Positions 13,536 to 64,000 of a stretch of DNA of 64,000 nt are shown here, piece by piece. The notes under the pieces were generated by a model, which was not told the origin of the DNA, made no database searches, and saw only the letters and a program-made list of their open reading frames with translations. Numbering within the stretch: position 1 is the first letter of the stretch; every line of letters begins with the position of its first letter. The DNA is from Streptomyces sp. NBC_00536. GTDB taxonomy: Bacteria; Actinomycetota; Actinomycetes; Streptomycetales; Streptomycetaceae. The position numbers were made by a program, and so were the translations under genes. The DNA lies in assembly GCF_036346295.1 (NCBI RefSeq), contig NZ_CP107819.1:6386001-6450000 (forward strand). Reading direction: 5' to 3'.

Positions 13536-13597
13536 CCCACCACGTGGAGTGCGTGGCGATCCTGGAGCCGGTCGTGAAGGGTGCCTGACCTGCAGGT

Positions 13598-14083
13598 TTA
13601 CCAGTGTGCATGATGTGCACTTGATGGGGTGTCAGTGTTGGCTGATGTGACGTCAGCGCAAAGAGTCGTCTCCCCGGCTGGGCCGTGCGCCCGGCCGGGG
13701 AGGGCCGACACGTACTCGTCGAGGTGGAGGACCGGGCCGAGGTCCGACTCGACGGGCGGATGGTGCAGAAGGTCGCCAACCAGTTCGACCTTGGACTGGG
13801 CACCGGAGGCGGGGTCGGCGACGTGCAGACGGGCGTACACCTGCGCCTGCTGGGTGACCTGGACCACGTACCCGGCCGCCCGGTATGCCTCGACGAGGCG
13901 GGCGATCGCCTGCGGCAGTTCGCCCTCGGCCCGCCCGATCGGGGTGAACAGGTCGACGTCGTCGCTGACCCGACTGACGAGTCGATGGGCCTGGACGGCG
14001 TATCCGCCAGCCAGCCGGTAGCCGAAGTCCTCGGCGAGCGCGTCCAGGCCGATACGGATCAGCCGGTGGTGCAGATCCTCCAC
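13598..14083 (-). pseudogene. AbiEii/AbiGii-type nucleotidyltransferase, C-terminally truncated remnant
   Basis: The first about 110 residues match the AbiEii toxin / DUF1814 nucleotidyltransferase fold: FGYRLAGGYAVQAHRL followed by DDVDLF, the GG...DxD substrate-binding signature, then KVELVGD. After 'GPVLHLDEYVSAL' the sequence loses family character and ends in a low-complexity tail; intact members are about 200-300 aa. GTG at 14083 overlaps the stop of the upstream small ORF (TAGTG). It reads as the 5' part of a toxin gene cut by a rearrangement or frameshift. Confidence 0.6.
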
Positions 14084-19281: not shown

Positions 19282-19992
19282 TCAGCTGACCGTGGTCAAG
19301 GACGGGGGGTGCCTCGTGGGTTCTCTGGAGGGGGCGGCGAGGGCGATCGCCGTTACCAGGAAGCCGCGCTGTACCGTCCAGCGGCCGGTGAAGTGGGTGA
19401 GGCGGACGTCACCGACCACGGGGCCGGGGACGAGCAGGCGCGCCGTGAAGGTGCAGGCGTCCGGGTCCACCGTGATGACCGCCTCCTGGAAGTCGAGCCA
19501 GAGCCCGGTGAGCGGGTACCACGCCTTGTAGACGCTCTCCTTCGCGCTGAACACCAGCCGGTCCCAGGCGACGTCGGGGCGTCGCTCGATCAGCGGGGCC
19601 AGCCAGGCGCGTTCCTCCGCCGTGGTGACGATCGCCAGCATGCCCTCCCGGGGAAGCGGTTCGTTGACCTCGGCGTCGACTCCGAGCGAGGTCATGTCCC
19701 CGCTGCGGGCCACCACGGCCGCCCGGTAGCCGTCGCAGTGCGTCATGCTGCCGACGAGGCCGGGAGGCCACAACGGCTCCCCGCGCGGCCCGCGCAGGAT
19801 CGGCGCCGGGGGGAAGCCGAGCCGGCCCATGGCCTGTCGGGCGCACGCCCTGACGGTGGCGAAATCGCTGCGGCGGCGTTCCACGGCCCCTTCCACCAGC
19901 CGCGCTTCCTGTGCGAAGAGGGACGGGGTGGGAAGGGGCGCGCCGAACACCTCGACCGCGGCGACCCCTGCGGGGAACACGTCGGTGATCAC
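19282..19992 (-). CDS. 4'-phosphopantetheinyl transferase (Sfp/EntD type)
   Basis: Transfers phosphopantetheine from CoA to the conserved Ser of carrier domains, here the acyl carrier protein and the NRPS T domains of this cluster. Family motifs are GSMTHCDGYRAAVV, the Mg-binding GVDAE, and the signature FSAKESVYKAWYP. The frame is open further upstream to GTG 20085, which is 13 bp after the oxygenase stop. GTG 19992 is chosen because homologues normally begin near VITDVFPAGV; the ribosome site is weak at both. Same strand and directly downstream of the JmjC oxygenase gene, so probably co-transcribed. This marks the likely left edge of the biosynthetic cluster. Confidence 0.85.
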   Translation of the reverse strand: MITDVFPAGVAAVEVFGAPLPTPSLFAQEARLVEGAVERRRSDFATVRACARQAMGRLGFPPAPILRGPRGEPLWPPGLVGSMTHCDGYRAAVVARSGDMTSLGVDAEVNEPLPREGMLAIVTTAEERAWLAPLIERRPDVAWDRLVFSAKESVYKAWYPLTGLWLDFQEAVITVDPDACTFTARLLVPGPVVGDVRLTHFTGRWTVQRGFLVTAIALAAPSREPTRHPPSLTTVS

Positions 19993-20098
19993 GCGCGCCT
20001 GCCAGCGGACACTCCCGGCTCCGGCGGGCCCGAGAGGGACATCACCAACCACAGCACCAGCTTCATGACCCGGAACCAGCTCCACCTGGCCCGCCTGA

Positions 20099-21298
20099 TC
20101 ACGGTCGGCCGCCGCCGGCCCGCGCGGGATACTCCCACGTCAAGGTGGACACGCGGAGCCGCTCGATGATCCGCAGGACGTCCGGGGCGGGGACGCTCCC
20201 GCCCGGGTGCGCGGCCGTGGCGACGGCCATGCCGTGGCGCGCCAGGTCGGCATCCTCCGCGGACCACACGGAGAGCTTCTCCAGTTCCGCGAACGCGTCG
20301 TCGATGCCCCCGTCGGGTGCGATGCCCTGCTCGGCACAGGCGTCCTTCGCGGCGGCCACGATCGCTCCGCCGCAGAGCCGCGCCGCGACCCCGGGTTCGC
20401 CGTGCCCGATCGCCTGCTCCGCGAGGGCGAGCACGGCGGCGGAGCCGTTGCCCAGGGCGCGGAGGTCGTGGGTCACGAACAGGCCGCGGACGTCCGCCAT
20501 GACGAGGTCCAGGTACAGCTGCCGGAAGTACGAGGGGCAGGCGCAGTCCCGTACGTCCGCGCGCCACCAGTAGTTGACCGACACCGAGATGTCCGGCGCG
20601 GAGACCTGGTGCCACCAGAAGGCCGGGATGAAGAGCAGGTCACCGGGCAGGACGAGGGCCTCCCAGTACTCCGCCCGCGCGAACTCGGGGAACTTCTCCA
20701 GGTCGGGGTCCGCCACGTCGACACCGCTCAGGTGCCGGGTGCGGATGTCGAGCGGCCCCGGGTAGAGCAGGTCGCTCTGGGACGGGTTGAAGAGGAGGAA
20801 CCTCTTGCGCCCGTCGAGCTGCGCGAACAGATTGTTCATGTTGTCGTAGTGCAGCGGGGTGTTCGACGACTCCGATGCCATCCACAGATTGATGTCGGTG
20901 ATGACGTCGCCCGGGATGTAGGGGGGAATGCTCAGGTCGTCACGCAGTTCGACCAGCGCGTTCGGGATCGACATCTGCTGCATGCTGAGCCGGCGGCCGC
21001 TCGCCGTGTCCCGGAACTCGGCTGCGAGCCGCGAGCCGCGCATCGGCTCGTAGCGCAGGCCCTCGCGCGCCGCGGTGTTGTACCTGAACGAGCCGTCCGC
21101 GTCCGCGATGGCGACCGGTACCTCACGGTCGCCCAGGCGTTCGGAGACGTATTCGGGAGTCCATTTCCGCATCGTGTCGAGCGCCCCGGTGCCGCGGATA
21201 ATCAGCGGTGTGGTGGTGAGAACCGCGGCGCGAGCGATGGGCTCTTCAGGGAATGAAGAAACGACTTCCACATGCCCCAGTGATCGGGCTCCCTGCAT
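20099..21298 (-). CDS. JmjC/cupin-8 Fe(II)/2-oxoglutarate-type oxygenase
   Basis: 399 aa from ATG 21298 (GGGGAT ribosome site); the frame stays open 5' of this, but that part is not protein-like. The cupin core shows the first metal motif in PLHYDNMNN (His150-x-Asp152) and the distal His230 in FIPAFWWHQV, with FNPSQSDLLYPGPL between, matching bacterial cupin-8/JmjC hydroxylases related to factor-inhibiting HIF. Such enzymes hydroxylate amino-acid side chains, often on carrier proteins or peptides. Between the phosphopantetheinyl transferase (same strand) and a divergent TauD-like gene, it is probably a tailoring oxygenase for this lipopeptide; which residue it acts on cannot be read from sequence. 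Confidence 0.78.
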   Translation of the reverse strand: MQGARSLGHVEVVSSFPEEPIARAAVLTTTPLIIRGTGALDTMRKWTPEYVSERLGDREVPVAIADADGSFRYNTAAREGLRYEPMRGSRLAAEFRDTASGRRLSMQQMSIPNALVELRDDLSIPPYIPGDVITDINLWMASESSNTPLHYDNMNNLFAQLDGRKRFLLFNPSQSDLLYPGPLDIRTRHLSGVDVADPDLEKFPEFARAEYWEALVLPGDLLFIPAFWWHQVSAPDISVSVNYWWRADVRDCACPSYFRQLYLDLVMADVRGLFVTHDLRALGNGSAAVLALAEQAIGHGEPGVAARLCGGAIVAAAKDACAEQGIAPDGGIDDAFAELEKLSVWSAEDADLARHGMAVATAAHPGGSVPAPDVLRIIERLRVSTLTWEYPARAGGGRP

Positions 21299-21665
21299 GA
21301 CAGATCCCCATTCCGGCAGAATACGCGATGAAGATCGCATGCTACGTATCGGCGGCCGATCGCACAATGGCCGGACACCGGGGTCAAGTTCCGCCGTCAT
21401 CACTTGTGTTCTTCCCGTGCGTTCTTCCCGAACGGTCCTTCCCGCGTGTTCTTCCCGCGCGTTCAACCGGCGCGGGTGCCGCAGTTGATCGGGTCGAGCG
21501 GTTGACCGGGTCAATGGGGGTGGCGGTCCGTCCGCCTGTTGCGGCACACTCCGCAGGGGCCGAGCCCTGGGCTGCTCGATCACGCCGCGACAGACAATGA
21601 ATTGCTCCCGAGCGACGAGGAATTCACGCGGCTCGCGTATCGCTTCGGAAGGGAACACCCAACGC
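21299..21665. promoter_or_regulatory. Divergent promoter region of the two oxygenase genes, with repeats and operator-like sites
   Basis: 367 bp without a gene between the minus-strand JmjC gene and the plus-strand TauD-like gene. It contains five 10-bp units GTTCTTCCCG or close variants spaced 13-14 bp (21408-21470). A StrR-box-like pair follows, GTTCAACCG (21461-21469) and CAGTTGATC (21482-21490), with a 12-nt spacer. The palindrome TTGACC-G-GGTCAA (21502-21514) is preceded 17 bp earlier by the related TTGATCGGGTC. The ribosome site of the TauD-like gene (GGAAGGGA) is at the right end. Regulatory use is inferred. Confidence 0.5.
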
Positions 21666-22601
21666 ATGAGCCACAGCACAGAATTTCCGCTCGTGATCGA
21701 GGCGGAGGGAGGTGAGAGCCTCGTCGAGCGGGTGAAGGACCGGCGCGAGAGCCTGCGCGCCTCCCTGCTCGAACACGGGGCGCTGCTCCTGCGCGGGTTC
21801 TCCGTCCCCGACGTGAGCGCCTTCGACTCCGTCGTCCGCGAGCTGTCGGGAGACCCGCTCACCTACACCGAGCGCTCCTCGCCGCGCAGCGCGATCCAGG
21901 GGCAGGTGTACACGTCCACGGACTACCCCCCGAACGAAGAGATCTTCCTGCACAACGAGAACTCCTACCAGCAGGCTTGGCCCATGGCGCTGTACTTCTA
22001 CTGCGCTCAGCCGCCGCTGACGCTCGGGGCGACGTCCCTGGCCAGCACCCGCGAGGTACTGGCCAGGCTCGACGGCACCGTGCGCGAGGAGTTCACCCGG
22101 CGCGGCTGGCGCGTGGTGCGCAACTTCCGTCCCGGCATCGGGCTCACCTGGCAGCACGTCTTCAACACCGATGACCGCGCGGCCGTGGAGGCCTACTGCG
22201 CCGAGAACGACATCCAAGCGGAATGGCTGCCGAACGACGCCCTGCGGACGACGGCGGTCAGGAAGGCGGTCCACCACCACCCCGTCACGGGTGACGAGGT
22301 GTGGTTCAATCACGCCGCGTTCTTCCACCTCACCACGCTGGACGCGGAGATCCGGGAAGGCCTTCTCGAAATGTTCGACGAGTCGGAACTCCCGACGAAC
22401 ACGTATTTCGGTGACGGCGGTGCCATTTCCGACGACGTCATCGAGCACGTGCGCGACTGCTATCGAGCGGCCACCGTGCGTTTCGACTACCGGGAACACG
22501 ATGTCCTCGTCATCGACAACATGCTGACCTCGCACGGACGGGAACCCTTCACCGGTCCGCGCAAGATTGCCGTCGCGATGGCCGAGCCCTTCCACCCCTA
22601 G
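21666..22601 (+). CDS. SyrP-like TauD/TfdA-family Fe(II)/2-oxoglutarate dioxygenase
   Basis: 311 aa. Metal ligands are visible: His96-x-Glu98 in FLHNENSYQQAWP and distal His290 in LTSHGREPFTGPRKI; the Arg-containing RKI segment fits 2-oxoglutarate binding. The HNEN form and the length resemble SyrP-type enzymes, which beta-hydroxylate Asp on an NRPS carrier domain, more than AsnO-type enzymes acting on free Asn. The neighbouring NRPSs load Asp once and Asn three times, so a beta-hydroxy-Asp or -Asn residue is the most likely outcome. ATG 21666 is chosen over an in-frame upstream ATG because the sequence before it lacks protein character. 102 bp separate it from the lipid cassette. Confidence 0.8.
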   Translation: MSHSTEFPLVIEAEGGESLVERVKDRRESLRASLLEHGALLLRGFSVPDVSAFDSVVRELSGDPLTYTERSSPRSAIQGQVYTSTDYPPNEEIFLHNENSYQQAWPMALYFYCAQPPLTLGATSLASTREVLARLDGTVREEFTRRGWRVVRNFRPGIGLTWQHVFNTDDRAAVEAYCAENDIQAEWLPNDALRTTAVRKAVHHHPVTGDEVWFNHAAFFHLTTLDAEIREGLLEMFDESELPTNTYFGDGGAISDDVIEHVRDCYRAATVRFDYREHDVLVIDNMLTSHGREPFTGPRKIAVAMAEPFHP

Positions 22602-22703
22602 TTCCGCCGGTAATGTTCCCGGGCGATCGGCCGGGCATTCACCAGAATTCGAGACCACCCCATTCAGGCCGCGCTCGTCCGTCCGCGCGGAGAGGAGAAC
22701 CCT

Positions 22704-24452
22704 GTGAGCATGACCCTTGAACCCAGCGTGCTCCATCTGCTGCGCCGGCACGCCGTCGACCGGGCAGAGCGGACCGCCGTCACCTTCGTCCACGACTTCG
22801 ACGCGGCCGACGGCTCGCGCAGCCTGAACTACGCCGAACTCGACGCGGAGGCGCGTCGCGTCGCCTCCTGGCTGCAGGAGCGCTGCGCACCCGGAGACCG
22901 GGTGCTGCTGCTGCACCCGGCCGGTCTGCCCTTCGTCACCGCGTTCCTCGCCTGCCTCTACGCCGGTGTCATCGCGGTGCCGTCGCCGATGCCGGGCCAG
23001 TTCCAGTACCAGCAGCGCCGCGTGACGATGATCGCCCGTGACGCCGGCGTCAGCGTGGCGCTCACCGACATGGGCCAGCTGCCCGAGGCGCAGCAGTGGA
23101 TAGCCGACACCGGCCTCGAACTGCCGGTCGCCGCGAGCGACGCCCCCGGCTTCGGTGACGCGTCGCGCTGGCACGACCCCGGCGCCACCGCCCAGGACGT
23201 GGTGCTCCTGCAGTACACCTCCGGCTCGACCGGTGACCCCAAGGGCGTCATGGTCACGCACGCCAACCTGCTGCACAACGCGGACAGTCTGAGCCGTTCC
23301 CTCGGCTTCACCGAGGACACCAACTTCGGCGGCTGGATCCCGCTCTACCACGACATGGGCCTGATGGGGCAGCTGCTGCCGGGCCTCTTCCTGGGCAGCA
23401 GCGTCGCGCTGATGTCGCCGATGGCGTTCCTCAAGCGCCCGCACCACTGGCTCGCGCTGATCGACCGGTACGACATCGGCTTCTCCGCCGCGCCCAACTT
23501 CGCCTACGAGCTGTGCCTGCGCCGGGTCACCGACGCGCAGATCGCCGCACTGGACCTGTCGCGCTGGCAGTTCGCCGCCAACGGCTCCGAGCCGATCCAG
23601 GCCAGCACCCTGCGGGAGTTCGCGGAGCGCTTCGGCCCGGCCGGTTTCCGGGCCGAGCAGCTCGCCCCCTGCTACGGAATGGCCGAGGCGACGGTGTTCA
23701 TCTCCGGCCGCTCGACCCGGCCGCCGCGGATCCGCGCCGTCGACCCGCAGGCGCTGGAGCGGCACATCGTCCAGGACCCCGAGCCGGGCGGCCTCGTACG
23801 CGAACTCGTCGGCTGCGGCGACGTACCCGACCTCGACGTGCGCATCGTCGAAGCGGGGACCCGCAAGGTGCTTGAGGACGGCACGACCGGCGAGATCTGG
23901 CTGCGCGGGCCGAGCGTCGCGGCCGGTTACTGGAACCGGCCCGATGTGACCGAGCAGATCTTCCGCGCCCACACCGCCGACGGCGACGGGCCCTACATGC
24001 GCACCGGTGACCTCGGGGTGCTGCTCGACGGCGAGATCTACGTCACCGGCCGCACCAAGGACCTGCTCATCGTGAACGGCCGCAACCTCTACCCGCACGA
24101 CCTCGAACACGAACTGCGGCTCTCGCACGCCCCGTTGGCGACCCTCGCCGGTACGGCGTTCACGGTCCCCGCCCCGCAGGAGGAGGTGGTGGTCGTGCAC
24201 GAGGTGCGCGGCCGCTTCAGCCAGGAAGAGCTGCGCGAGCTGGCCATCGGCATGCGCGCCACCGTGCACCGCGAGTTCGGCGTGCACACCGCGGGCATCG
24301 TGCTGATGCGTCCCGGCACGGTCCGCAAGACCACCAGCGGCAAGGTGCAGCGCGCCGAGATGCGCGGCCTGTTCCTCGCGGGCGCCCTCGCCCCGCTGTA
24401 CGAGGAGATGGCGCCCGGCGTCCAGGCGGCGATGGCCGGAGCCGCCGGGTGA
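22704..24452 (+). CDS. Fatty acyl-AMP ligase (FAAL)
   Basis: 582 aa, GTG start with GAGAGGAG at 22691-22698. It is an adenylate-forming enzyme of the FAAL branch: P-loop YTSGSTGDPKG, the FAAL-typical PLYHDMGLMG, ANGSEPI, and YGMAEAT, with a C-terminal domain including GRTKDLLIVNGRNLYPHDLE and TTSGKVQR. It activates a fatty acid as the acyl-adenylate and passes it to an acyl carrier protein instead of CoA, starting lipopeptide synthesis. It is the first gene of a tight four-gene unit; its TGA overlaps the next start (GTGA). Confidence 0.92.
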   Translation: MSMTLEPSVLHLLRRHAVDRAERTAVTFVHDFDAADGSRSLNYAELDAEARRVASWLQERCAPGDRVLLLHPAGLPFVTAFLACLYAGVIAVPSPMPGQFQYQQRRVTMIARDAGVSVALTDMGQLPEAQQWIADTGLELPVAASDAPGFGDASRWHDPGATAQDVVLLQYTSGSTGDPKGVMVTHANLLHNADSLSRSLGFTEDTNFGGWIPLYHDMGLMGQLLPGLFLGSSVALMSPMAFLKRPHHWLALIDRYDIGFSAAPNFAYELCLRRVTDAQIAALDLSRWQFAANGSEPIQASTLREFAERFGPAGFRAEQLAPCYGMAEATVFISGRSTRPPRIRAVDPQALERHIVQDPEPGGLVRELVGCGDVPDLDVRIVEAGTRKVLEDGTTGEIWLRGPSVAAGYWNRPDVTEQIFRAHTADGDGPYMRTGDLGVLLDGEIYVTGRTKDLLIVNGRNLYPHDLEHELRLSHAPLATLAGTAFTVPAPQEEVVVVHEVRGRFSQEELRELAIGMRATVHREFGVHTAGIVLMRPGTVRKTTSGKVQRAEMRGLFLAGALAPLYEEMAPGVQAAMAGAAG

Positions 24453-26137
24453 GCGCCGACGCAGCCCAGTGGCCGTCCGGGCTCCCCGCGGCACTGGCCG
24501 AGATGATGGAGAGCGCGGCCGCCGCGGGTGACGCCTTCGGCGCGCCCCGCAGCGCCGCCCTGGACGCCGCCGAGGCGTTCCCCGACGAGGAATGCGCGCT
24601 GCTGGACGCCTCCGGCCTGCCGCGTGCCTACGTACCCGAACGCCTCGGCGGGGTACCGGGCGGCCTGCCCGAGCTGCTGAACGCGTTGCGCGAGGTGGCC
24701 CGGCGCGATGTCACGGTCGCCGTGGCGCACGGCAAGACCTTCCTCGGCTCCGTGTCCACCTGGGTGGCCGGGACCGAGGAGCAGCAGCGGGCCCTGGCCC
24801 GGCTGGTGACCGACGAGCACGCGGTCGTCTCGTGGGGCCTGACCGAGCGGGGCGTGGGCAGCGACCTGCTGGCCGGAACCATGACCGCCACCCCGGAGCC
24901 GGACGGAGGGTGGCGGATCACCGGGGAGAAGTGGCCGATCAACAACGCCACCCGGGGCAGGCTCATCTGTGTCCTGGCGCGCACCGATCCGGCGGGCGGT
25001 CCCCGCGGATTCAGTCTGTTCCTGGTCGACAAGTCCACCCTCCCGCAGGGGGCGTGGGAGCCGCTGGCCAAGGAGCCGACGCACGGGATCCGCGGCGCCG
25101 ACATCAGCGGACTGCGCCTGTCCGGCGCACCGGTCGGGGCCGACGCCCTCATCGGAGAGGTCGGCGACGGGCTGGGGATCGTCCTGCGCTCGCTCCAGCT
25201 GACCCGCACCCTGTGCGCGGCGCTCTCCCTGGGCGCCGGTGAGCACGCGCTGCGGCTGGTCGGCGAGTTCGCCGCCCAGCGCGAGCTGTACGGCACCCGG
25301 CTGGCCCTGCTGCCGCTGGCCCGGCGCGTCCTGGGCCGGGCCGCCGCGTCGCTGGCCCTGGCCGACGCCGCGGCCCTGCTCGGCGGCCGCAGCGCGCACG
25401 GACTCCCCGGCGAGATGAGCACCGTCTCGGCGACCGTCAAGGCCGGCGTGCCGTGGATCGTCCAGCAGGTCATCGACGATCTCGCAGAACTCCTGGGCGC
25501 ACGCGGCTTCCTGACGGAACATCATGCCGACGGCATGTTCCAGAAGCTGGAGCGCGACCACCGGATCGTGGCCGTCTTCGACGGCAGCACGGCGGTCAAC
25601 CGCTCGCTGCTCATCTCCCAGTTCCCGCTCTTGGCCCGGCTGATCCGCAAGGGGTCCTACGACGGGCCCGGGCTCGCCGCGGTCACCGGCGGGGCACCGC
25701 TGCCCGAGCTGGACCCCACGGCCTTGCGCCTGGTGAGCCGCACCGGCTGCAGCATCGTCCAGGCCGTACCGGACGCCGCCGCGCGGATCGCCGACCTGGC
25801 GGCCGCGGGCAGCGTACCGCCGCGCGCGGCGGAGCTGGCCGGTCTGCTCCGCGAGCAGACGGCAGCGGTCGCCGAGGCCATGGCGGAGCTGCCGCCGACC
25901 GGCAAGAACGCGCCCGCCGCCGCCTTCGCGGTGGCCCGGCGGTTCGAGGCGTGCTTCGCCGGCGCCGCCGTCCTGCACCTGCTCGCCGCACCCGGCGGGA
26001 CGGACCGCGCCGTGGTGCTGACCGCCGCCCTGGAACGGTGCCTGGAACTGCTGGTACCCGGCCACCGGCCGCCGTCCGACGCCTACGAGCCCCTCGTCCC
26101 GACAGTCGCGCACTCCGTGGAGGAACCGGTCCGATGA
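24449..26137 (+). CDS. Acyl-CoA dehydrogenase family protein 1 (acyl chain desaturation)
   Basis: 562 aa, longer than housekeeping acyl-CoA dehydrogenases (about 380-400) because of an additional C-terminal helical region. The core shows WGLTERGVGSDLLAG (the flavin-near TE.G.GSD motif), WRITGEKWPINNATRG, HGIRGADI and FDGSTAVNRSLL. It is translationally coupled to FAAL and followed by an overlapping paralogue (ATGA). Together the two probably oxidise the ACP-bound fatty chain to an enoyl or dienoyl chain before it is joined to the peptide. Family precedent: ramoplanin and enduracidin clusters also pair FAAL, ACP and two such dehydrogenases and make 2,4-dienoyl tails. The substrate here is inferred. 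Confidence 0.85.
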   Translation: MSADAAQWPSGLPAALAEMMESAAAAGDAFGAPRSAALDAAEAFPDEECALLDASGLPRAYVPERLGGVPGGLPELLNALREVARRDVTVAVAHGKTFLGSVSTWVAGTEEQQRALARLVTDEHAVVSWGLTERGVGSDLLAGTMTATPEPDGGWRITGEKWPINNATRGRLICVLARTDPAGGPRGFSLFLVDKSTLPQGAWEPLAKEPTHGIRGADISGLRLSGAPVGADALIGEVGDGLGIVLRSLQLTRTLCAALSLGAGEHALRLVGEFAAQRELYGTRLALLPLARRVLGRAAASLALADAAALLGGRSAHGLPGEMSTVSATVKAGVPWIVQQVIDDLAELLGARGFLTEHHADGMFQKLERDHRIVAVFDGSTAVNRSLLISQFPLLARLIRKGSYDGPGLAAVTGGAPLPELDPTALRLVSRTGCSIVQAVPDAAARIADLAAAGSVPPRAAELAGLLREQTAAVAEAMAELPPTGKNAPAAAFAVARRFEACFAGAAVLHLLAAPGGTDRAVVLTAALERCLELLVPGHRPPSDAYEPLVPTVAHSVEEPVR

Positions 26138-27876
26138 CTCTCGTCGACCCCGCAGGGACCACGTCCCCCGCGGCATCCCCGGACCCGGTCGACCGGCTGG
26201 AGGCGCTCTTCGGCGACGCGGGCGCCCCCGGAAACCCGGTCGGCCGCGACGCGGTGCTGGCGGCCGACGCCGAAGGCGCCATGCTGTCGGCCGGTGAAGA
26301 GCTGCTCGACGGGTTCGGGCTGAACGCACACTTCGTCCCCGAGGCCCTGGGCGGCCGGTTCACCGGCCCCGAGGACCTCATCGGGGTGATGCGCGCCGTC
26401 TACCGGCGCGATCCCGCCCTGGGCCTCGGCTACGGCACCGGATCCTTCATGGCCGCCGTCAACGTCTGGACCTCGGGCAGCACGCGGCAGCAGACCTGGC
26501 TCGCCGGGCACCTGCTCTCCGGCGGACGGGTGGCCTGCGGCTACCACGAGCTGGCCCACGGCAACGACTTCGCACGGGCCGAACTGACCGCCCTGCCCGG
26601 CCCCGACGGGCAGCTGCTCGTCAACGGCCGCAAGGAAGTGGTCGCCAACCTCGGCCGGGCCGGAGCCATGGTGCTCTTCGCCCGCACCGACGAGGGCCCC
26701 GGCAGCCGCAGCCACTCCCAGCTCCTGCTGGAAACGGCGCGGCTGGCACCGGCCGCCCTCACCCGGCTGCCCCGCTTCGCCACCGTCGGCATGCGCGGCG
26801 TACCGCTCGGCGGCATCGAGTTCACCGACTGCCCCGTCCCGGCGGACGCTGTCGTCGGAACTCCCGGGCACGGCCTGGAGACGGCCCAGCGCTCCTTCCA
26901 GCTGACGCGGATCGCGCTGCCCGGCATGACCCTGGGCCTGCTCGACACCGCGCTGCGCACCGCCCTGCGCGGGGCCCTCGGCCGCAACCTGTACGGCGGC
27001 ACCGCCGCCGACCTGTCACTGTCCCGGACGGTGCTCGCCGAGGCCTTCGCCGACCTGCTGCTGGCGGACGCGTTCGTCACCGTGGCCGCCCGCGCGGCCC
27101 ACACCGCTCCCGCGCAGAGCACCGTCTACGCCTCGGCGGTCAAACTCCTCGTCCCGGCGCTGCTGATGGGCGCGGTCAGCAGGCTCTCCGAACTGCTCGG
27201 CTCGCAGTTCTACCTGCGCTCCGGGGAGCAGCCGCTCTTCCAGAAGCTGCAACGCGACGTCCTGCCCTCGGCGTTCGGGCACGCCTCCCGGGTCTCGTGC
27301 CAGGCCGCACTGCTGCCGCAGCTGCCCCTGACCGCGCGCCGGACCTGGAGCGCGGACGACGGGCCGGCGCTCCCGGCCACGACGTTCCGGCCCGGGGAGC
27401 AGTTGCCGCAGCTGGACTTCGGCGCCCTCAAGGTCACCGGGGGCGGGCGCGACCCGCTCTCCCGCACGCTGCTCCAGGGCGCGGAACGGCGTACCGGGGA
27501 GGACGGTGCGATCGCCGCGCGGGCGTCCGAGTACGCCGCCGAGGTACGGGCACTGTCCGCCGAGGCGGCCCGCCTGACCCCCGACCAGCTGGGCCCCGCC
27601 GCACCGCCCCACGCCTTCGACCTGACGACCCGCTGGGCCGGGGTGCTCGCCGCCGCGGCCTGCCTGGGCCTGTGGTGGGAACGGCCGGACGGCGGGCAGG
27701 GACCGGGCGCCGAGCCCGCGTGGGTGCTCGCGGCCCTGCACCGCCTGGGCGTCCACACCGGACGCCACCACGACCCGCTCCCGCAGCCGCTGAGCGAGGT
27801 CCTCTACGCGGAACTGCTCCGGCGTCACGACGCCGGTCTCACCTTCGACCACGCCCGCCGCTCCACGGGCGCCTGA
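26134..27876 (+). CDS. Acyl-CoA dehydrogenase family protein 2 (acyl chain desaturation)
   Basis: 580 aa from ATG 26134, overlapping the previous stop as ATGA. It is a paralogue of dehydrogenase 1 with the same extended architecture: CGYHELAHGNDFA replaces the usual flavin motif, then LLVNGRKEVVANLGRAG, GMRGVPLGGIEF, and LLGSQFYLRSGEQPLFQKLQRD. The flavin-contact motif is notably degenerate compared with copy 1, so it may have a different reaction position or serve as a partner subunit. 56 bp before the acyl carrier protein gene. Confidence 0.83.
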   Translation: MTLVDPAGTTSPAASPDPVDRLEALFGDAGAPGNPVGRDAVLAADAEGAMLSAGEELLDGFGLNAHFVPEALGGRFTGPEDLIGVMRAVYRRDPALGLGYGTGSFMAAVNVWTSGSTRQQTWLAGHLLSGGRVACGYHELAHGNDFARAELTALPGPDGQLLVNGRKEVVANLGRAGAMVLFARTDEGPGSRSHSQLLLETARLAPAALTRLPRFATVGMRGVPLGGIEFTDCPVPADAVVGTPGHGLETAQRSFQLTRIALPGMTLGLLDTALRTALRGALGRNLYGGTAADLSLSRTVLAEAFADLLLADAFVTVAARAAHTAPAQSTVYASAVKLLVPALLMGAVSRLSELLGSQFYLRSGEQPLFQKLQRDVLPSAFGHASRVSCQAALLPQLPLTARRTWSADDGPALPATTFRPGEQLPQLDFGALKVTGGGRDPLSRTLLQGAERRTGEDGAIAARASEYAAEVRALSAEAARLTPDQLGPAAPPHAFDLTTRWAGVLAAAACLGLWWERPDGGQGPGAEPAWVLAALHRLGVHTGRHHDPLPQPLSEVLYAELLRRHDAGLTFDHARRSTGA

Positions 27877-27932
27877 GCCCGACCGCCCGACCGCCCCGAC
27901 CACCCCAGAACCCGCATCCACGGAGGTTTGCC

Positions 27933-28208
27933 ATGTCCGACACCACCGCTCCCCCGGCCACGGCCGATGCCGCAGAGGTCCGCACCTGGCTGCGCGAATG
28001 CGTGGCCACCTACGTCCGGCTTCCCGCCGAGGACATCGACGTGAACCTGCCGCTGTCCGAGTACGGCCTCGACTCGGTGTACGTGCTGAGCCTGTGCGCC
28101 GACATCGAGGACCGCTACGGCATCGAGGTCGAGCCCACCCTGCTCTGGGACCACCCCGCCATCGGCCCGATCGCCGAGGCGCTGACCCCGCTGCTCGCCG
28201 CCCGCTGA
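27933..28208 (+). CDS. Acyl carrier protein
   Basis: 91 aa, ATG 27933 with CGGAGG ribosome site. The phosphopantetheine attachment serine is Ser48 in YGLDSVYVLSL, followed by the acidic helix (ADIEDRYGIEVE) typical of free-standing ACPs. It should carry the FAAL-activated fatty acid during desaturation and deliver it to the starter condensation domain of the first NRPS. It is the last gene of the lipid cassette, directly upstream of a strong terminator. Confidence 0.92.
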   Translation: MSDTTAPPATADAAEVRTWLRECVATYVRLPAEDIDVNLPLSEYGLDSVYVLSLCADIEDRYGIEVEPTLLWDHPAIGPIAEALTPLLAAR

Positions 28209-28228
28209 TGCGGTGACCGGTGAGGACA

Positions 28229-28276
28229 ACGGGTCCGGCCCCGCCGCTGATGCGGCGGGGCCGGACCCGTTTTTTT
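28229..28276 (+). terminator. Rho-independent terminator after the lipid cassette
   Basis: Perfect 19-bp stem (28229-28247 with 28252-28270) around a TGAT loop, followed by seven T residues on the plus strand (28270-28276). It lies 21 bp after the ACP stop and 11 bp before the end of the convergent P450 gene. The T-run is only on the plus strand, so it terminates the cassette more clearly than the P450 gene. Confidence 0.93.
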
Positions 28277-28286
28277 GCACTGCCGG

Positions 28287-29489
28287 TCAGGAAAGTGTCA
28301 GCTTGACGGGGAGCTTCTCCGGGCCGTTGACGACGATCGAGTCCAGCAGCGTGGCCGCGCCGTCCGCCTCCACCCGCACCTTCCGGTCGAGCAACTCGCC
28401 GTAGAGCAGGCGCAGTTCGACCCTCGCCAGCATGCTGCCGAGGCAGAAGTGCTCGCCGAAGCCCAGGGCCAGGTGCCGGTTGGGCTTGCGGGCGATGGTG
28501 AAGGTGTCCGGGGAATCGAAGACCGTCTCGTCGCGGTTGGCGGACGGCAGCCAGAAGACGACCGGGTCACCGGCCTCGATCGTCTTGCCGTGGATCTCGG
28601 TCCTCCGGGTGGCGGTCCGCAGGATGTGCGTGGCGGTGGACGTCCAGCGCATGACCTCCTCCACCGCCGACGGCAGCAGGGCCGGATCGTCCGCCAACTG
28701 CTGCCACTGATCCGGGTGTTCGAGGAACGCGAGCATTCCGCCGGCGGCGGCGATCCGGGTGTTCTCGGTGCCGCCGACGAGCAGGTTGTCGCAGTTGAGG
28801 ATCACGTCGTCGGGGCTGAGACGCTCGCCGTCGACGGAACCCGTCGCCAGCACGCTGACCAGGTCGTCCCCCGGCCGCGCCGCCTTCTCCGCCTGGAGTT
28901 CCTCGAAGTAGCCGAGGATGTTCAGGTGGGCGAACCGGCGTTCGAGGGGGTCGCCGGCCGCGAAGGCCTGGCTGGTCAGGTCGTAGAGGTACTCCCAGTC
29001 GGACTCCGGCACGCCCATCATCTTGCAGATCACATACAGCGGGACCCGGGCCGCGACGTCGGACACGAAGTCGCAACTGCCCTGTGCGAGCGCCTTGTCC
29101 ACGATGTTCTTGGTGATGTCGGACATCTCGTGTTCCAGCGCGCGGATCGAGCGCACGGAGAACCACTCGTCCACCAGCCCGCGCAGCTGCCGATGGCGCG
29201 GCGCGTCGGTCAGGGCGAGGGTGCGGCCGCCACCGGGGTCCGCGCCGTGCTCGGCCGGCCGGAGCAGGATGCCCCGCGCGGAACTGAAGGTCTCCGCGTC
29301 GCGGTAGGCGGTGCGGATGTCCTCGTACCGGGTCAGGGCCCAGAATCCGGGAAGCTCCGTCGGCGGATGCCAATACACCGGATCATTGGCGCGGAGCCAG
29401 CGCCACTGCACGAACGGATCGCCGTGCGCGTAGAGCCCGGGATCCACCAGATTGATCTGCGGCGCCGGATCGGCCGACTCGTTCTGCAT
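28287..29489 (-). CDS. Cytochrome P450
   Basis: 400 aa, ATG 29489 with TGAGGC upstream. Heme-binding loop LGFGEHFCLGS with Cys349, ExxR motif in EEVMRW, and I-helix VGGTENTR. In that helix the usual acid-alcohol pair (E/D-T) is E-N, an altered proton-relay position. Soluble bacterial class I type, needing ferredoxin partners not encoded here. It points away from the NRPS operon and shares its promoter region, so it is very likely a tailoring enzyme, for example hydroxylating or crosslinking an aromatic residue or hydroxylating a carrier-bound amino acid. The site is not deducible. Confidence 0.9.
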   Translation of the reverse strand: MQNESADPAPQINLVDPGLYAHGDPFVQWRWLRANDPVYWHPPTELPGFWALTRYEDIRTAYRDAETFSSARGILLRPAEHGADPGGGRTLALTDAPRHRQLRGLVDEWFSVRSIRALEHEMSDITKNIVDKALAQGSCDFVSDVAARVPLYVICKMMGVPESDWEYLYDLTSQAFAAGDPLERRFAHLNILGYFEELQAEKAARPGDDLVSVLATGSVDGERLSPDDVILNCDNLLVGGTENTRIAAAGGMLAFLEHPDQWQQLADDPALLPSAVEEVMRWTSTATHILRTATRRTEIHGKTIEAGDPVVFWLPSANRDETVFDSPDTFTIARKPNRHLALGFGEHFCLGSMLARVELRLLYGELLDRKVRVEADGAATLLDSIVVNGPEKLPVKLTLS

Positions 29490-30053
29490 GCGAATGCCTC
29501 ACAGGTTCGTTGGAATTCAAGGCCGGAAATATCATGCACGCGGCCGGTGGATCGGCGGAATGTCGCCGACGGTCCGGGACCGGGAAAGGCGCCGGCGTGC
29601 GGACCTCCGCCGGGCGGACCGACGCGCACGGATGCGCACGGACGCGCACGGTGACCCCCAGGTGTTCAACCGCCGCTTCCGCGCACTTGAACACCTCGCG
29701 AAGACCCCGGTTGAGCAGGTACGGAGCCGGTCCTCCGGGCCGCCGCCCCGCATTGATCGGGGCCGCGGCCCTGAGCCATAGTGATCACGTATTGAGCAGT
29801 GGACAGCGCGTTCCCAAGCAGCGCGTACGACGCCATAAGCGCAGGTCACAGCGGTGGTTATTGCCGCGATTCCAGCCCGACCGGCACCCTGCTCAATGTC
29901 TGTGAATTCGCCTGCGCCCTGCGCGGGCCAATGAAGTCCGCAGAGCAAATTTGCAGCGGTGTGCAAGGGGAGCTGGGCATTCAAGAGGCATGTCCGAAGG
30001 TGACGGCCCGTGTTGTTCCAGCCGATGTGTCGATCCGAATGGAGTGCGCGGGA
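29490..30053. promoter_or_regulatory. Divergent promoter region between P450 and first NRPS
   Basis: 564 bp. The NRPS frame is open through part of it (from 29799), but protein character begins only at about 30054. Contents: three tandem 10-bp units (GACGCGCACG, one base variant) at 29621-29650; the StrR-box inverted repeat at 29660-29696; and a weak promoter candidate TTGATC (29753) with CATAGT about 18 bp later. No small gene is seen. Confidence 0.6.
29660..29696. promoter_or_regulatory. StrR-type operator (inverted repeat)
   Basis: Perfect 10-bp arms AGGTGTTCAA (29660-29669) and TTGAACACCT (29687-29696). Inside them GTTCAACCG-N11-CACTTGAAC (29664-29692) fits the StrR-family consensus GTTCGACTG-N11-CAGTCGAAC in both half-sites and in exact spacing. 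StrR-like activators (for example Bbr in balhimycin producers) control many NRPS clusters. This site could serve both the P450 gene and the NRPS operon. No StrR gene is in this window. Confidence 0.7.
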
Positions 30054-42931
<12,878 letters not shown>

Positions 42932-42932
<1 letters not shown>

Positions 42933-57900: not shown

Positions 57901-58957
57901 CGTCCCGTCGCTGTGGCGGGCCCTGCTGGACGAGTCGGGCTGGCCGGCCGGGGTGCGGGCACTGGTGGGCGGTGAGGCGCTGCCGCCCGAGCTGGCGCAG
58001 CGGTTCACGGACCTCGGTGTCGGCGCGGTGAACCTGTACGGGCCGACCGAGGCCACGGTGTGGGCGACGTCCGCCGAGGTCACCGAGGGCCCGGTGCTGA
58101 TCGGCCGGCCGTTCGCCGAGGTGGGCGCGTACGTCCTCGACGGATGGATGCGGCCGGTTCCCGCCGGCGTGGCGGGCGAACTGTACCTGTCGGGCGCGCA
58201 GTTGGCCCGCGGATACGCGGGTCGGCCGTCGCTGACCGCGGAGCGGTTCGTCGCGTCCCCCTACGGCGGCACGGGCGAACGGCTGTACCGCACGGGTGAC
58301 CTCGCCCGGTGGACGAAGGACGGGCGGCTGGAATGCCTCGGCCGCGCCGACGAGCAGGTCAAGGTCCGCGGCTTCCGCATCGAACCCGGCGAGATCGAAG
58401 CGGTGCTCGCCGCACAGGACACCGTGGCGCGCGCCGTCGTGATCGTCCGCGAGGACAAGCCCGGCGACCAGCGGCTCGTGGCCTACGTGGTCCCCGCCAC
58501 GGAGACGGGCGACACCACCGAGGGCTTCGCGGGGACGCTCCGGGCGGCGGTCCAGGACCAGCTCCCCACGTACATGGTCCCCTCGGCGGTCGTGGTGCTC
58601 CCGGCACTGCCGCTCACCGCCAACGGAAAGCTGAACCGGAAGGCACTGCCCGCCCCCGAATACACCACGGGTGAGGGCCGGGCCCCGGCGAACCGGCAGG
58701 AAGAGCTGCTGTGCCAGGCGTTCGCCGAGGTACTGGGGCTCGACAGCGTGGGCGTGGACGACGACTTCTTCGCGCTCGGTGGTCACTCCCTGCTCGCCAC
58801 CCGGCTGATCAGCCAGATCAGGGCCCTCCTGCGAGTCGACTTCTCGCTGCGGGCCCTCTACAAGACGCCGACCGTGGCCGGAGTGGCCCGGCAACTCGGA
58901 ACACAGAAGACAGCCAGGCCCGCACTGCGGCCGATGCGTACCAACGAGGAGTACTGA
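42932..58957 (+). CDS. NRPS 2: five modules (Gly, Asn, aromatic, aromatic, Gly)
   Basis: 5341 aa, (C-A-T)x5, no thioesterase. The start ATG overlaps the NRPS 1 stop (TGATG), and the protein opens directly with the C domain (VPLSFAQRRLWFIGQLDGP), without an N-terminal docking helix. Codes: DILQLGLVWK (Gly), DLTKVGEVGK (Asn), DAWAVGSVDK (unassigned, Trp-like), DAWTVAAVDK (unassigned, Phe-like), DILQLGLVWK (Gly). The C domains of modules 5 and 6 are LCL (HHIAGDGWS); those of modules 7, 8 and 9 are dual C/E-like, implying D-Asn6, D-aromatic7 and D-aromatic8. Carrier serines: 993, 2066, 3129, 4202, 5286. The C-terminal tail [13 protein letters not shown] closely resembles that of NRPS 1. Confidence 0.93.
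42935..46040 (+). other. Module 5: LCL C, A(Gly), T
   Basis: C about 42935-44250 with HHIAGDG at 43316-43336. A about 44270-45770, pocket D, I, L (SFDIAALELF), Q (VVQGVPS), L, G, L, V, W: a glycine code. T serine at 45908. The A domain is nearly repeated in module 9. Confidence 0.85.
46040..49375 (+). other. Module 6: LCL C, A(Asn), T
   Basis: C about 46060-47400 with HHIAGDG at 46457-46477. A about 47420-48990, code DLTKVGEVGK (Asn), the same as modules 1 and 10. T serine at 49127. This A-T stretch is close to identical to module 10 at nucleotide level, with T/G-ending codons more frequent than in neighbouring modules. Confidence 0.85.
49375..52555 (+). other. Module 7: dual-like C, A(aromatic, Trp-like), T
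   Basis: C about 49380-50690, core HHLVQDH at 49778-49798. A about 50710-52190, pocket read as D, A, W, A, V, G, S, V, D, K; seven positions agree with the CDA tryptophan code DGWAVASVCK as I remember it, and Asp at 331 is unusual. T serine at 52316. Substrate is a prediction only. Confidence 0.6.
52555..55775 (+). other. Module 8: dual-like C, A(aromatic, Phe-like), T
   Basis: C about 52560-53880, core HHAVQDH at 52970-52990. A about 53910-55420, pocket D, A, W, T, V, A, A, V, D, K; this is the GrsA phenylalanine code with Ile/Val swaps and Asp instead of Cys at 331. T serine at 55535. A modified aromatic (beta-hydroxy-Phe, Tyr or similar) is possible. Confidence 0.6.
55775..58957 (+). other. 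Module 9: dual-like C, A(Gly), T, docking tail
   Basis: C about 55780-57090, core HHAVQDH at 56186-56206. A about 57110-58650, glycine code DILQLGLVWK, with long near-identical stretches to module 5. T serine at 58787. It ends in a short Arg/Pro-rich tail and hands over to the LCL C domain of NRPS 3. Confidence 0.85.
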
Positions 58958-61900: not shown

Positions 61901-64000
61901 CGAACGAGCGCGAGCGGGTGCTGTGCCAGGCCTTCGCGGAGGTCCTGGGCGTGGCCGAGGTCGGGGTCGAGGACGACTTCTTCGCTCTCGGCGGTCACTC
62001 GCTGCTGGCGGTGCACCTGGTCGAGGTGCTGCGCAAGCACGGCGTCTCGGTATCGGTGCGCGCGCTGTTCGACACCCCGACCCCGGTGGGTCTGGCGGCC
62101 TCGGCGGGCGTGGACACCGTGGAGGTGCCGGAGAACCTGATTCCCGCCGGTGCGACCGCGATCACGCCGGAGATGCTGCCGCTGGTCGACCTGACCGCGG
62201 CGGAGATCGAGCGGATCGCCGCCACCGTCGAGGGCGGCGCGGCGAACATCGCCGACGTCTACCCGCTGGCCCCGCTCCAGGAGGGCCTGCTCTTCCACCA
62301 CCTGATGGCGGAGGGCGGCGAGGACGCCTACCTGATGCCGGTGGCCCTGGAGATGGACTCGGCGGAGCGGGTGGCGGAGTTCGCCCGCGCGTTCCAGCTC
62401 GTGGTGGACCGTCACGACATCCTGCGGACCTCGTTCGTGTGGGAGGGGCTGCGCGAGCCGGTCCAGGTGGTCTGGCGCGAAGCCGTACTGCCGGTGACCG
62501 AGGTGGTCCTGGACCCGCTCTCGGCGGATCCGCTGGCCGAACTGCACGAGGCCGTGGGCCTGTCGATGGCTCCGGGCCGCGCACCGCTGATCAGCGTGCA
62601 CTTCGCCGCCCTGCCGGACGGCGGGCGGCACCTGGTCCTGCTGCGCCTGCACCACCTGGTCCAGGACCACACCGCCCTTGAGGTGCTGCTGCACGAGGTG
62701 CAGATGTTCCTCGCCGGGCGCGGTGGCGAGCTGGAGCCCTCGCTGCCGTTCCGCGACTTCGTCGCGCAGGTGCGCGGCGGCATGGAACGCGGCGAGCACG
62801 AGCGGTACTTCGCCGAGCTGCTGGGCGATGTCACGGAGCCGACCGCTCCCTTCGGGCTGGTCGACGTCCGCGGTGACGGAGCCGCGGTGGAGCGTGCCGT
62901 CGTACCGCTCTCGCCGGAGGTCGTCGAGCAGCTGCGGGGGGTGGCGCGCCGGGTCGGTACCAGTGCGGCGACGGTGCTGCACGTGGCATGGGGGCGGGTG
63001 CTGGCCGCCGTCTCGGGTCACTCGGACGTGGTGTTCGGCACGGTGCTCTTCGGCCGGATGAACGCCGGTGCGGGCGCCGACCGGGTCGCCGGTCTCTACA
63101 TGAACACGCTCCCCGTGCGGCTGCGCACCGGCGAGCTGGGGGCCCTGGAGGCCGTGACCGCGATGCGCGGTCAGCTGGCCGGGCTGCTGGAGCACGAGCA
63201 CGCCTCGCTGGCGCTGGCCCAGCAGGCCAGTGGCCTGACGGGCAACTCTCCCGTGTTCACCTCGCTGCTCAACTACCGCCACAACACGGGCCGGGATGAC
63301 GCTCCGGAGGGCGGCGACGCTCCCGAGGGCATCCGCGTGCTGTCCTCGCGGGAGCGCACGAGCTACCCGCTCGGTGTGTCCGTCGACGACAACGGCGACT
63401 CGATGTCGCTGGCCGTGGACGCCGTCGCACCGATCGACGCCGTGGCCGTGGGCACGCTCCTGCGGACCGCCGTCGAGGCCCTGGTGCCGCTGATCGGGCA
63501 GGCGCTCGACGGCGGACCGGACACGGCGCTGGCCAGTGTCGACGTACTGGCTCCGGAGGACCTGAACCGGCTGCTGGTGGAATGGAACGACACGGCGGCC
63601 GAGGTCGGGCCGTCGACGCTCCCCGCGCTGTTCGCGGCGCAGGCGCAGCGGACGCCCGAGGCGACCGCGGTGGTCTTCGAGGGCGCGGAGCACTCGTACG
63701 CCGAGCTGGACGCCCGGGCGAACCGCCTGGCCCGGCTGCTGGCCGCGCGGGGCGTCACCACGGGTTCCGTGGTCGGTGTCCGGCTGGAACGCGGCGTCGA
63801 GCTGGTGGTGGCACTGCTGGCCGTGGTGAAGGCGGGCGCGGCCTACCTTCCCGTGGACCCGGGCTACCCGGCGGACCGCGTCGGGTACGTGCTGGACACG
63901 GCGGGCGCGTCGGTGGTCGTGACCACGGCCGCCCTGGACGCCGGACCGCTGCCCGCGGACGCGGTACGGGTGCTCGTGGAGGACCCGGCGCTCGCGGACC
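58957..64000 (+). CDS. NRPS 3 (partial; runs off right edge): Asn module and start of module 11
   Basis: Open from ATG 58957 (TGATG overlap with NRPS 2) to the window end, 1681 codons seen. Order: LCL C (HHIAGDG 59341-59361), A with code DLTKVGEVGK (Asn), T (Ser 1015), dual C/E-like C (HHLVQDH 62650-62670), then the first about 140 residues of an A domain whose specificity pocket is beyond the edge. It begins directly with the C domain, like NRPS 2. The dual-like C domain predicts D-Asn10. The remaining modules and any thioesterase must lie to the right. Confidence 0.92.
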   Translation, partial: MIPLSFAQRRLWFIGQLDGPSPAYNIPIVRRLSGDLDSSALNAALRDVMRRHEVLRTVFPTKDGQPYQRIRKLDDLEWELSVAQVAPEDLDDAVAAAAHHLFDLATEVPIRAWLFTTAPGEHVLAVVVHHIAGDGWSMGPLARDVSVAYAARRAGHAPDWEPLPVQYADYALWQRELLGEEDDPDSVMSRQLGFWRETLAGAPEELALPVDRPRPAVPSHRSLAAALDVPADVHTRLVELARAEGVSLFVVLQSALAVLLSRLGAGTDIPIGTVVAGRTDVALDDLVGFFVNSLVLRTDLSGTPTFRELLAQGHDTALSAFEHQDVPFEKLVEELAPARVMGRHPLIQTMFTMQNNAQAVLDLPGLGAGSAPASTTDAAAAARFDLDVLLGEAFDASGAPAGVTGTLLGAADLFDAESVERIAQRLVRVLEQVAANPGVTLDAVDVLDADERRRVLTDWNDTGADFGSGLVPELFAARVTRTPDAVAVIADRVEVSFAELDERANRLAQFLVGQGVGAESLVGICLPRGVDAVAAILAAWKAGAGFLPIDPEYPVDRISFMLADSGAVLTLTDEEILGDLPAGRARMVAVDSTLMGVQLSMLPGTAPEVVTRPEGLAYVIYTSGSTGRPKGVAVPHGGLANYAQFAAGSYEVALGGAPLHSSLAFDLTVTSVVVPLISGAPVVVSREGGAEGLAQLLRDGGGFGLAKAVPAHLPLLSEMLTDGEVKGAAGTWVVGGEALPGSVVQSWLERAPGSVVVNEYGPTETVVGCAVFEVRAGDEVGDAVPIGRPIANTQLYVLDAFLRPVAPGVAGELYIAGAQLARGYVNRPGLTGERFTANPFASGGRMYRSGDVARWRADGQLEFLGRADEQVKVRGFRIEPGEVQAVVAAHPQVAQAAVVAREDVPGDVRLVAYVVADDPDDDLNALPAEVRTFVTGRLPEYMVPSAVVVLDALPLTGNGKLDRKALPAPEYAAGAGAGRAPANERERVLCQAFAEVLGVAEVGVEDDFFALGGHSLLAVHLVEVLRKHGVSVSVRALFDTPTPVGLAASAGVDTVEVPENLIPAGATAITPEMLPLVDLTAAEIERIAATVEGGAANIADVYPLAPLQEGLLFHHLMAEGGEDAYLMPVALEMDSAERVAEFARAFQLVVDRHDILRTSFVWEGLREPVQVVWREAVLPVTEVVLDPLSADPLAELHEAVGLSMAPGRAPLISVHFAALPDGGRHLVLLRLHHLVQDHTALEVLLHEVQMFLAGRGGELEPSLPFRDFVAQVRGGMERGEHERYFAELLGDVTEPTAPFGLVDVRGDGAAVERAVVPLSPEVVEQLRGVARRVGTSAATVLHVAWGRVLAAVSGHSDVVFGTVLFGRMNAGAGADRVAGLYMNTLPVRLRTGELGALEAVTAMRGQLAGLLEHEHASLALAQQASGLTGNSPVFTSLLNYRHNTGRDDAPEGGDAPEGIRVLSSRERTSYPLGVSVDDNGDSMSLAVDAVAPIDAVAVGTLLRTAVEALVPLIGQALDGGPDTALASVDVLAPEDLNRLLVEWNDTAAEVGPSTLPALFAAQAQRTPEATAVVFEGAEHSYAELDARANRLARLLAARGVTTGSVVGVRLERGVELVVALLAVVKAGAAYLPVDPGYPADRVGYVLDTAGASVVVTTAALDAGPLPADAVRVLVEDPALAD
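58960..62235 (+). other. Module 10: LCL C, A(Asn), T
   Basis: C about 58960-60290; A about 60310-61850; T serine at 61999. Pocket residues are identical to module 6, and the surrounding DNA is nearly the same over roughly 1.5 kb or more, including runs without any difference (for example around 61200-61400 against 48320-48520). Confidence 0.85.
62235..64000 (+). other. Module 11 (partial): dual-like C and N-terminal part of A
   Basis: C about 62240-63560, very close to the C domain of module 7. The following A domain starts around 63580 (core A1/A2 region [11 protein letters not shown] and [14 protein letters not shown]) and is cut before the pocket residues. Its sequence differs from the module 7 A domain, so the duplicated block ends near this junction. 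Confidence 0.75.

Follow-up and report, generated by a model that had tools for sequence, protein, structure and literature searches.

We analysed a 64,000-nucleotide stretch of the Streptomyces sp. NBC_00536 genome (9.15 Mb, four contigs; C1:6386001-6450000; hereafter the window), together with 20 kb to its left and 100 kb to its right, with genes called by codon GC and coordinates above 64000 continuing the window numbering rightwards. The locus probably encodes a single nonribosomal peptide synthetase (NRPS) line for an N-acylated 28-residue peptide, in which the adenylation (A) domain of module 21 would be split between two proteins and would load diaminopropionate (Dap). The line is real and longer than first read. 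Most of its chemistry is unremarkable, and what surprises is the proposed split A domain, which lies outside the window and was therefore not visible from it.

The assembly line and its module 21

A preliminary description of the window had proposed a lipopeptide line of eleven modules, the last one cut off, with the next 20-30 kb rightwards as enough to complete it. In fact the line runs past 64000 as far as 124,097, so that 60 kb more were required, and it comprises six NRPS genes, 28 modules and one thioesterase (TE). The first residues proposed for the lipopeptide were supported, but the product was incomplete, with 17 further modules and the TE lying to the right. Domains were parsed by motif in all six genes, and Pfam was applied to NRPS1, NRPS5 and the end of NRPS6. 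The motif count gave 28 condensation (C) domains, 28 thiolation (T) domains and 27 A cores, with one starter C and one TE (by Pfam) in the entire line.

29799-42932, + strand: NRPS1, starter C and modules 1-4 (Asn, Ser, Asp, Val); the actual start is probably around 30050; 4 C, 4 A and 4 T by Pfam
42932-58957, + strand: NRPS2, modules 5-9 (Gly, Asn, DAWAVGSVD, DAWTVAAVD, Gly)
58957-74967, + strand: NRPS3, modules 10-14 (10 Asn, 11 Ser); cut by the window edge at 64000
79331-98719, + strand: NRPS4, modules 15-20
98719-107118, + strand: NRPS5, modules 21-23
107118-124097, + strand: NRPS6, modules 24-28 and TE; end by Pfam A, T, Thioesterase

Module 21 spans 440 residues from the C-domain HH motif to the T motif, compared with 839-905 in the other modules. 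By Pfam, NRPS5 contains 3 C, 2 A cores and 3 T, yet three AMP-binding_C pieces, and the third of these rules out module 21 as a module without any A domain. Its piece covers AMP-binding_C positions 19-76 of 76 and retains A9 (LPDSMVP) and the A10 lysine (NGKVD), with no A core; A8, A9 and A10 are named A-domain motifs, and the A10 lysine is catalytic. A stand-alone A protein, encoded 28 kb from module 21, has the AMP-binding core, gives no AMP-binding_C match up to E 10, and stops 28 residues past A8, where the module 21 piece begins. It is not a complete A protein, as its small subdomain lacks A9 and A10. A frameshift hiding its end was considered and rejected: the frames are 500-501 codons long in four Streptomyces copies, and the downstream frames in the host and in S. 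avidinii contain no A9 or A10. The two proteins thus hold complementary conserved pieces, which we read as a natural split adenylation domain that would load Dap.

In the proposed mechanism, the stand-alone protein provides the pocket for ATP and the amino acid (DIWELTADD; the lysine position is empty), while module 21 holds the remaining small subdomain, A10 lysine included. The lysine-bearing part is used by adenylating enzymes of this class; the core could bind ATP and Dap yet lacks that part. The A domain would be complete only upon docking of the core protein on the C-Asub-T module (Asub, small A subdomain), and L-Dap from SbnA and SbnB would then be loaded on module 21. Both host proteins score above their NCBIfam equivalog cut-offs (380 versus 350 bits and 416 versus 327 bits, respectively). 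If the split is true, the module would be addressed by a separate enzyme with a built-in choice of site, because that enzyme becomes complete only on the correct module.

Distribution and kinship of the two pieces

To find related lines, the starter C domain was searched for in the genus (22 of 392 genomes at E <= 1e-80), and four of the 22 exceeded 50% identity (100, 95, 85 and 77%). The four carriers are the host, S. avidinii JCM 4726, S. hygroscopicus ATCC 21589 and a further genome, G110; the relatives match the host at 79-90% in the TE and 84-90% in the core protein. A family search with the starter C (2 of 394) and a repeat centred on G110 (3 of 392) gave no further carrier. Ten public core homologs at 83-90% (P0001-P0010), some perhaps from the same strains, suggest more carriers. 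The available passages of a paper on S. avidinii (PMC13336041) concern biotin-related clusters.

Homologs of the core protein were then sought among public proteins, with scoring limited to proteins 0.55-1.75 times as long as the query and to the 8000 candidates that had the most words in common with it; 800 reached E <= 1e-60. Among the best 120 of the 800, every one ends 24-39 residues past A8, with no A9 or A10 and PF00501 as the only family; they are named from Streptomyces, Kitasatospora, Nonomuraea, Actinomadura, Actinocorallia, Thermomonospora and Spirillospora, among others. At E <= 1e-150, the core gene was present in 3 of 394 genomes of the class (the host being one) and, within one other actinobacterial family, in 16 of 200. 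We scanned up to 40-48 kb around each of these 16 loci (one contig of 12.8 kb, one stretch of 27 kb) with models built from the host domains. In all 16, the core-only gene immediately precedes, in the same orientation, an NRPS gene that has a single C-Asub-T module. The core-only genes cover small-subdomain positions 2 to 26-29 of 90, and the C-Asub-T pieces cover positions 25-34 to 90 in 15 of the 16 loci; Pfam agrees for G1040 and G920 (AMP-binding_C 27-76 of 76, no core). Matches to SbnA (71-78%) and SbnB (72-82%) adjoin the core gene throughout, SbnA scoring above cut-off in both loci checked. Because core gene, Dap genes and orphan piece co-occur in 16/16 loci, they appear to travel together. 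The 16 loci (L114-L145) represent a further shared NRPS cluster type carrying the split Dap cassette, and a VanR/VanS-like pair lies near the G920 locus.

Normal modules caught by a loose pattern were set aside. The orphan end pieces number 22: 16 from the other family and six from the Streptomyces lines (module 21 in all four, module 19 in S. hygroscopicus and G110). In a tree of 105 small subdomains, from which three full-length CoA-ligase-like proteins caught by the length rule (G1214, G1156, G1119) were left out, the orphan pieces form a clan of exactly 22 with support of 0.978. Identity of the host piece to the 16 foreign orphan pieces is 63-75% (mean 70), compared with 45-60% for the 27 normal pieces in the host line (mean 53) and 48-72% for 56 normal pieces from the other family (mean 59). 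Between Streptomyces orthologs of the piece (58 codons), dN/dS is 0.02-0.17.

The core-only protein might instead act alone, the module piece being a spacer kept for shape only. The C-to-T length may indeed matter for docking, but we consider this unlikely: the A10 lysine is kept in 22/22 pieces, the pieces cluster with one another and not with their neighbours, and the position of the cut agrees between the two partners. Independent decay of each module was also rejected, since the orphan pieces form one clan. Most simply, a single cut would have fallen within the small subdomain, just past its first stretch, with the two resulting pieces inherited together ever since. The module 19 and 21 pieces are letter-identical within S. 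hygroscopicus and within G110 (synonymous differences, pS, of 0.02 and 0.00), suggesting copying between modules inside each genome.

Several observations weigh against the split reading. The orphan match in one locus (G1156) starts earlier, at positions 7 to 90; the tree is built on about 60 columns; some of the 22 pieces are identical copies, leaving fewer than 22 independent sequences; and identity alone separates orphan from normal pieces incompletely (63-75% versus up to 72%). We find it fairly likely that A domains split in trans are a standing actinobacterial device, in which a core-only Dap enzyme with its SbnA/SbnB cassette would complete its active site on any module bearing a matching orphan piece. 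In two species, modules 19 and 21 bear identical pieces, as if copied, and would then provide a second Dap site without a second enzyme. These lines would make the longest one-line bacterial NRPS peptides known to us, trigintamicin perhaps apart. A split of this kind would be of direct use in re-programming NRPS lines, and nature has apparently already done the same by moving a piece of about 60 residues.

Predicted product and continuity of the line

Pocket positions were read by alignment of A domains to GrsA, whose letters equal 1AMU exactly over residues 230-529. Except where a publication is cited below, the residue names are those we presume for these codes. Modules 1-4 read DLTKVGEVG (Asn), DVWHVSLVD (Ser), DLTKVGHIG (Asp) and DAFWLGGTF (Val); modules 5-11 DILQLGLVW (Gly), Asn, DAWAVGSVD, DAWTVAAVD, Gly, Asn and DVWHLSLVD (Ser); modules 12-16 DNLTEGTVD, DTWTVASVD, Asn, DALSVGAVI and Asn; modules 17-20 Asp, Asp, Asn and Asn; and, after module 21 with no A core, modules 22-28 Gly, Ser, Ser, DVFSVAIVY (25 and 26), Asp and DMFHMGLVW. 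The earlier pocket readings agree with these, and module 11, cut by the window, is Ser. Looked up in open-licence PubMed Central (PMC) papers, 1 of 12 codes was found. The pockets given in the consulted part of PMC9113097 include DAFWLGGTF as Val (malacidin) and DGWAVASVC as Trp (calcium-dependent antibiotic, CDA). The module 7 pocket matches the CDA Trp pocket at 6/9 positions. For modules 7 and 8, described as Trp-like and Phe-like, the pockets hold while the names Trp and Phe are weak, since hydroxyphenylglycine-type genes are present without a fixed module. No clear specificity came from PDB searches with A25, A28, A8 and the stand-alone protein.

A C-domain tree resolved one starter, 14 LCL-type and 13 dual-type domains, the last in modules 2, 3, 4, 7, 8, 9, 11, 12, 16, 22, 23, 25 and 26. 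We take these 13 as dual, each carrying HHx(L/M)A close to its N terminus as in the dual C-domain motif. Since a D residue is expected before each dual-type C domain, 12 are expected (1, 2, 3, 6, 7, 8, 10, 11, 15, 21, 24 and 25), residue 22 being Gly; the D positions proposed within the window (1, 2, 3, 6, 7, 8 and 10) correspond to the dual domains of modules 2, 3, 4, 7, 8, 9 and 11. The predicted product is acyl-dAsn-dSer-dAsp-Val-Gly-dAsn-d(Ar)-d(Ar)-Gly-dAsn-dSer-X-(Ar)-Asn-dX-Asn-Asp-Asp-Asn-Asn-dDap-Gly-Ser-dSer-dX-X-Asp-X. The fatty acyl-AMP ligase (FAAL) and acyl carrier protein (ACP) would supply the fatty acid to Asn1, the six synthetases would hand the chain along in order, the dual C domains would invert the 12 chiral residues, and the terminal TE would release the peptide, perhaps as a ring; by analogy, it may act as an antibiotic. 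As a separate observation, 900 bp A-domain stretches are 93-98% identical within module sets 14/19 (98.2%), 17/18/27 and 25/26, a sign of recent copying inside the line.

The pockets of the four Streptomyces lines were compared after placing the S. avidinii and S. hygroscopicus pieces on modules by best C domain and order. The comparison left out the FAAL entries (DMMSAGCVF), three A domains whose codes were cut (avi_C34, avi_C35, avi_C45) and two contigs that matched at 48-65%, hyg_C113 and hyg_C36. The order below is host, S. avidinii, S. hygroscopicus, G110; a question mark denotes not found or cut.

Pocket 1: Asn, Asn, Asn, Ser
Pocket 2: Ser, ?, ?, Ser
Pockets 3 and 4: Asp in all four; Val in all four
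Pocket 5: Gly, Gly, ?, Gly
Pocket 6: Asn, Asn, ?, Asn
Pockets 7, 8, 13 and 15: identical in all four
Pocket 9: Gly, Gly, Thr, Gly
Pocket 10: Asn, cut, ?, Asp
Pocket 11: Ser, ?, ?, Thr
Pocket 12: DNLTEGTVD, same, Asn, same
Pockets 14 and 16: Asn, Asn, ?, Asn
Pocket 17: Asp, DAWLLGAVC, ?, DAWLVGAVV
Pocket 18: Asp, ?, Asp (piece may be module 27), Asp
Pocket 19: Asn, A present with code cut, core-less, core-less
Pocket 20: Asn, Thr, ?, Asn
Pocket 21: core-less in all four
Pockets 22 and 23: Gly in all four; Ser in all four
Pocket 24: Ser, ?, Ser, Ser
Pockets 25-27: host and G110 the same
Pocket 28: DMFHMGLVW, Gly, DMFHMGLVW, DMFHMGLVW

The three related lines retain the module order and differ at single residues; the module 9 C domain of S. 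hygroscopicus is closest to the LCL-type ones.

Within the host, NRPS genes overlap in a TGATG context at junctions 1/2, 2/3, 4/5 and 5/6, and NRPS2-6 begin directly with a C domain. Against the overall reading speak the 4.4 kb between NRPS3 and NRPS4, occupied by other genes; an NRPS3 tail without the xxEE ending seen in NRPS1, 2, 4 and 5; the location of the G110 line at two chromosome places; and the pockets of modules 7, 8, 12, 13, 15, 25, 26 and 28, which have no residue assignment. The gap, which holds a two-component pair (response regulator and kinase) and an ABC-2-like protein (22 bits versus a Pfam cut-off of 27), and the differing tail would both suit two adjacent lines, with NRPS1-3 making a lipo-14-mer and NRPS4-6 a second peptide. 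Such an arrangement is improbable, as NRPS3 lacks a TE and NRPS4 a loading module, RPALRP occurs in the tails of NRPS1-5 (5/5 in the host and in G110), and both halves are found in 4/4 carriers. The tail difference need not matter, because xxEE overlaps the ribosome site of the following gene and NRPS3 has no such site; NRPS4 starts in a TGATGA context though the preceding gene is not an NRPS gene. The G110 contig begins partway through the initial C domain of NRPS3 (L040 1-778) and the rest lies at about 6.42 Mb (L062 near 10762), likely an assembly inversion; a real inversion is less probable. The want of a known product and the recent A-domain copying would also fit a silent or decayed cluster, but this is hardly probable with about 30,000 codons open across the host line and all six NRPS genes found in G110. 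A single line ending in the NRPS6 TE is the arrangement we prefer.

Neighbouring genes and comparison with known systems

The starter C of the preliminary description was recovered in the C-domain tree, and its FAAL and ACP were confirmed among the genes upstream of NRPS1.

19282..20085, - strand: 4'-phosphopantetheinyl transferase (Pfam 4PPT_N, ACPS); 80% match beside the S. avidinii cluster
20099..21862, - strand: Cupin_8/JmjC-type oxygenase, candidate hydroxylase (Pfam Cupin_8, 164 bits); start uncertain
21597..22601, + strand: TauD-type oxygenase, candidate beta-hydroxylase (Pfam TauD, 150 bits); start uncertain, overlaps the Cupin_8 gene
22704..24452, + strand: FAAL (AMP-binding; FAAL families among the best NCBIfam matches, all under cut-off)
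24449..26137, + strand: acyl-CoA dehydrogenase (ACAD)-family protein 1 (Pfam, three ACAD domains)
26134..27876, + strand: ACAD-family protein 2 (Pfam, two ACAD domains)
27933..28208, + strand: free-standing ACP (Pfam PP-binding, 55 bits)
28287..29489, - strand: cytochrome P450 (Pfam p450)

By its genes (FAAL, free ACP, starter C and collinear modules ending in a TE), the cluster would belong to the FAAL-initiated actinobacterial NRPS lipopeptides. The region 3' of the TE encodes a dehydratase similar to hydroxyaspartate ammonia-lyase (L011 208-1257), an ABC ATPase and a YbaK-like protein (L011 2640-3128), then a CmlA-type hydroxylase (closest solved chain 8a90, then CmlA), an HPPD/HmaS-like dioxygenase (315 bits versus a plain HPPD cut-off of 277), an oxidase-aminotransferase fusion, SbnB and SbnA. 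The last genes encode the stand-alone A protein (135077-136549), an exporter, a hydrolase, prephenate dehydrogenase and MbtH. Four candidate hydroxylases of differing classes are present in the cluster. The Cupin_8 oxygenase recurs in the relatives (81% and 70% over most of the protein in two; in the third, 56% across 148 residues). Among solved chains, 9yut and 1y0z were the only matches to the TauD protein, with no known Asn hydroxylase; its gene is present in 2/3 relatives and was not found in the 180 kb taken from G110. Residues 1 and 10 of the G110 line are other than Asn, which is no more than a hint at the TauD target.

Beside the cluster, window positions 1-14083 encode an Eco57I-type methylase with DUF7008, a NERD protein with kinase domains, two Schlafen group 3 helicases and a weak AbiEii match, a defence-like set. 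Other NRPS-like matches to the query module lie near 2.91, 3.57, 6.80 and 7.26 Mb of host C1 (67-74%). A search of a plasmid collection matched 92 records, none covering >80% of the query, and the best 20 of the 92 showed 70-75% identity over at most 23% of it; an Rfam scan gave no match.

A lipopeptide of this residue order was not found in open-licence PMC papers, and the earlier description of it as unrecognised holds within that literature. As had been noted for the visible part, no Asp-X-Asp-Gly occurs in modules 1-11, nor does it in the full line, which sets it apart from the daptomycin-type calcium lipopeptides; NRPS6 also has five modules and a TE and is not a terminal two-module protein. 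Friulimicin, laspartomycin and malacidin share with this cluster a trans A protein, FAAL, ACP and ACADs, and, according to the part of PMC9113097 consulted, their C-T module at position 2 is served by that protein. Their trans protein is A-T-Te, whereas here it is a core without the end piece, which stays in the module, and DXDG is absent here.

Enduracidin and ramoplanin likewise come from large FAAL-started NRPS lipopeptide lines with one module fed in trans. The FAAL, ACP, ACADs, hydroxyphenylglycine-type genes, CmlA-type hydroxylase and trans-fed module found here are gene types of that group too, and could make this line a long member of it; we think this very doubtful, given 28 modules versus the 17 stated in the passages seen of PMC8616955, and pockets and residues that differ. 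Syringopeptins SP22 and SP25 are very long NRPS lipopeptides of 22 or 25 modules (PMC4554452, as far as consulted), but differ from this line in coming from Pseudomonas, with three synthetases and other residues.

A product of 28 residues would push bacterial NRPS peptides to larger sizes and offer four natural variants for comparison. Trigintamicin, a peptide of about 30 residues and perhaps of similar length, is the main risk to novelty of the product. Interrupted A domains, in which a tailoring domain is inserted between A8 and A9, are broken in the same A-domain region, but there the chain is continuous, whereas here the domain lies in two proteins.

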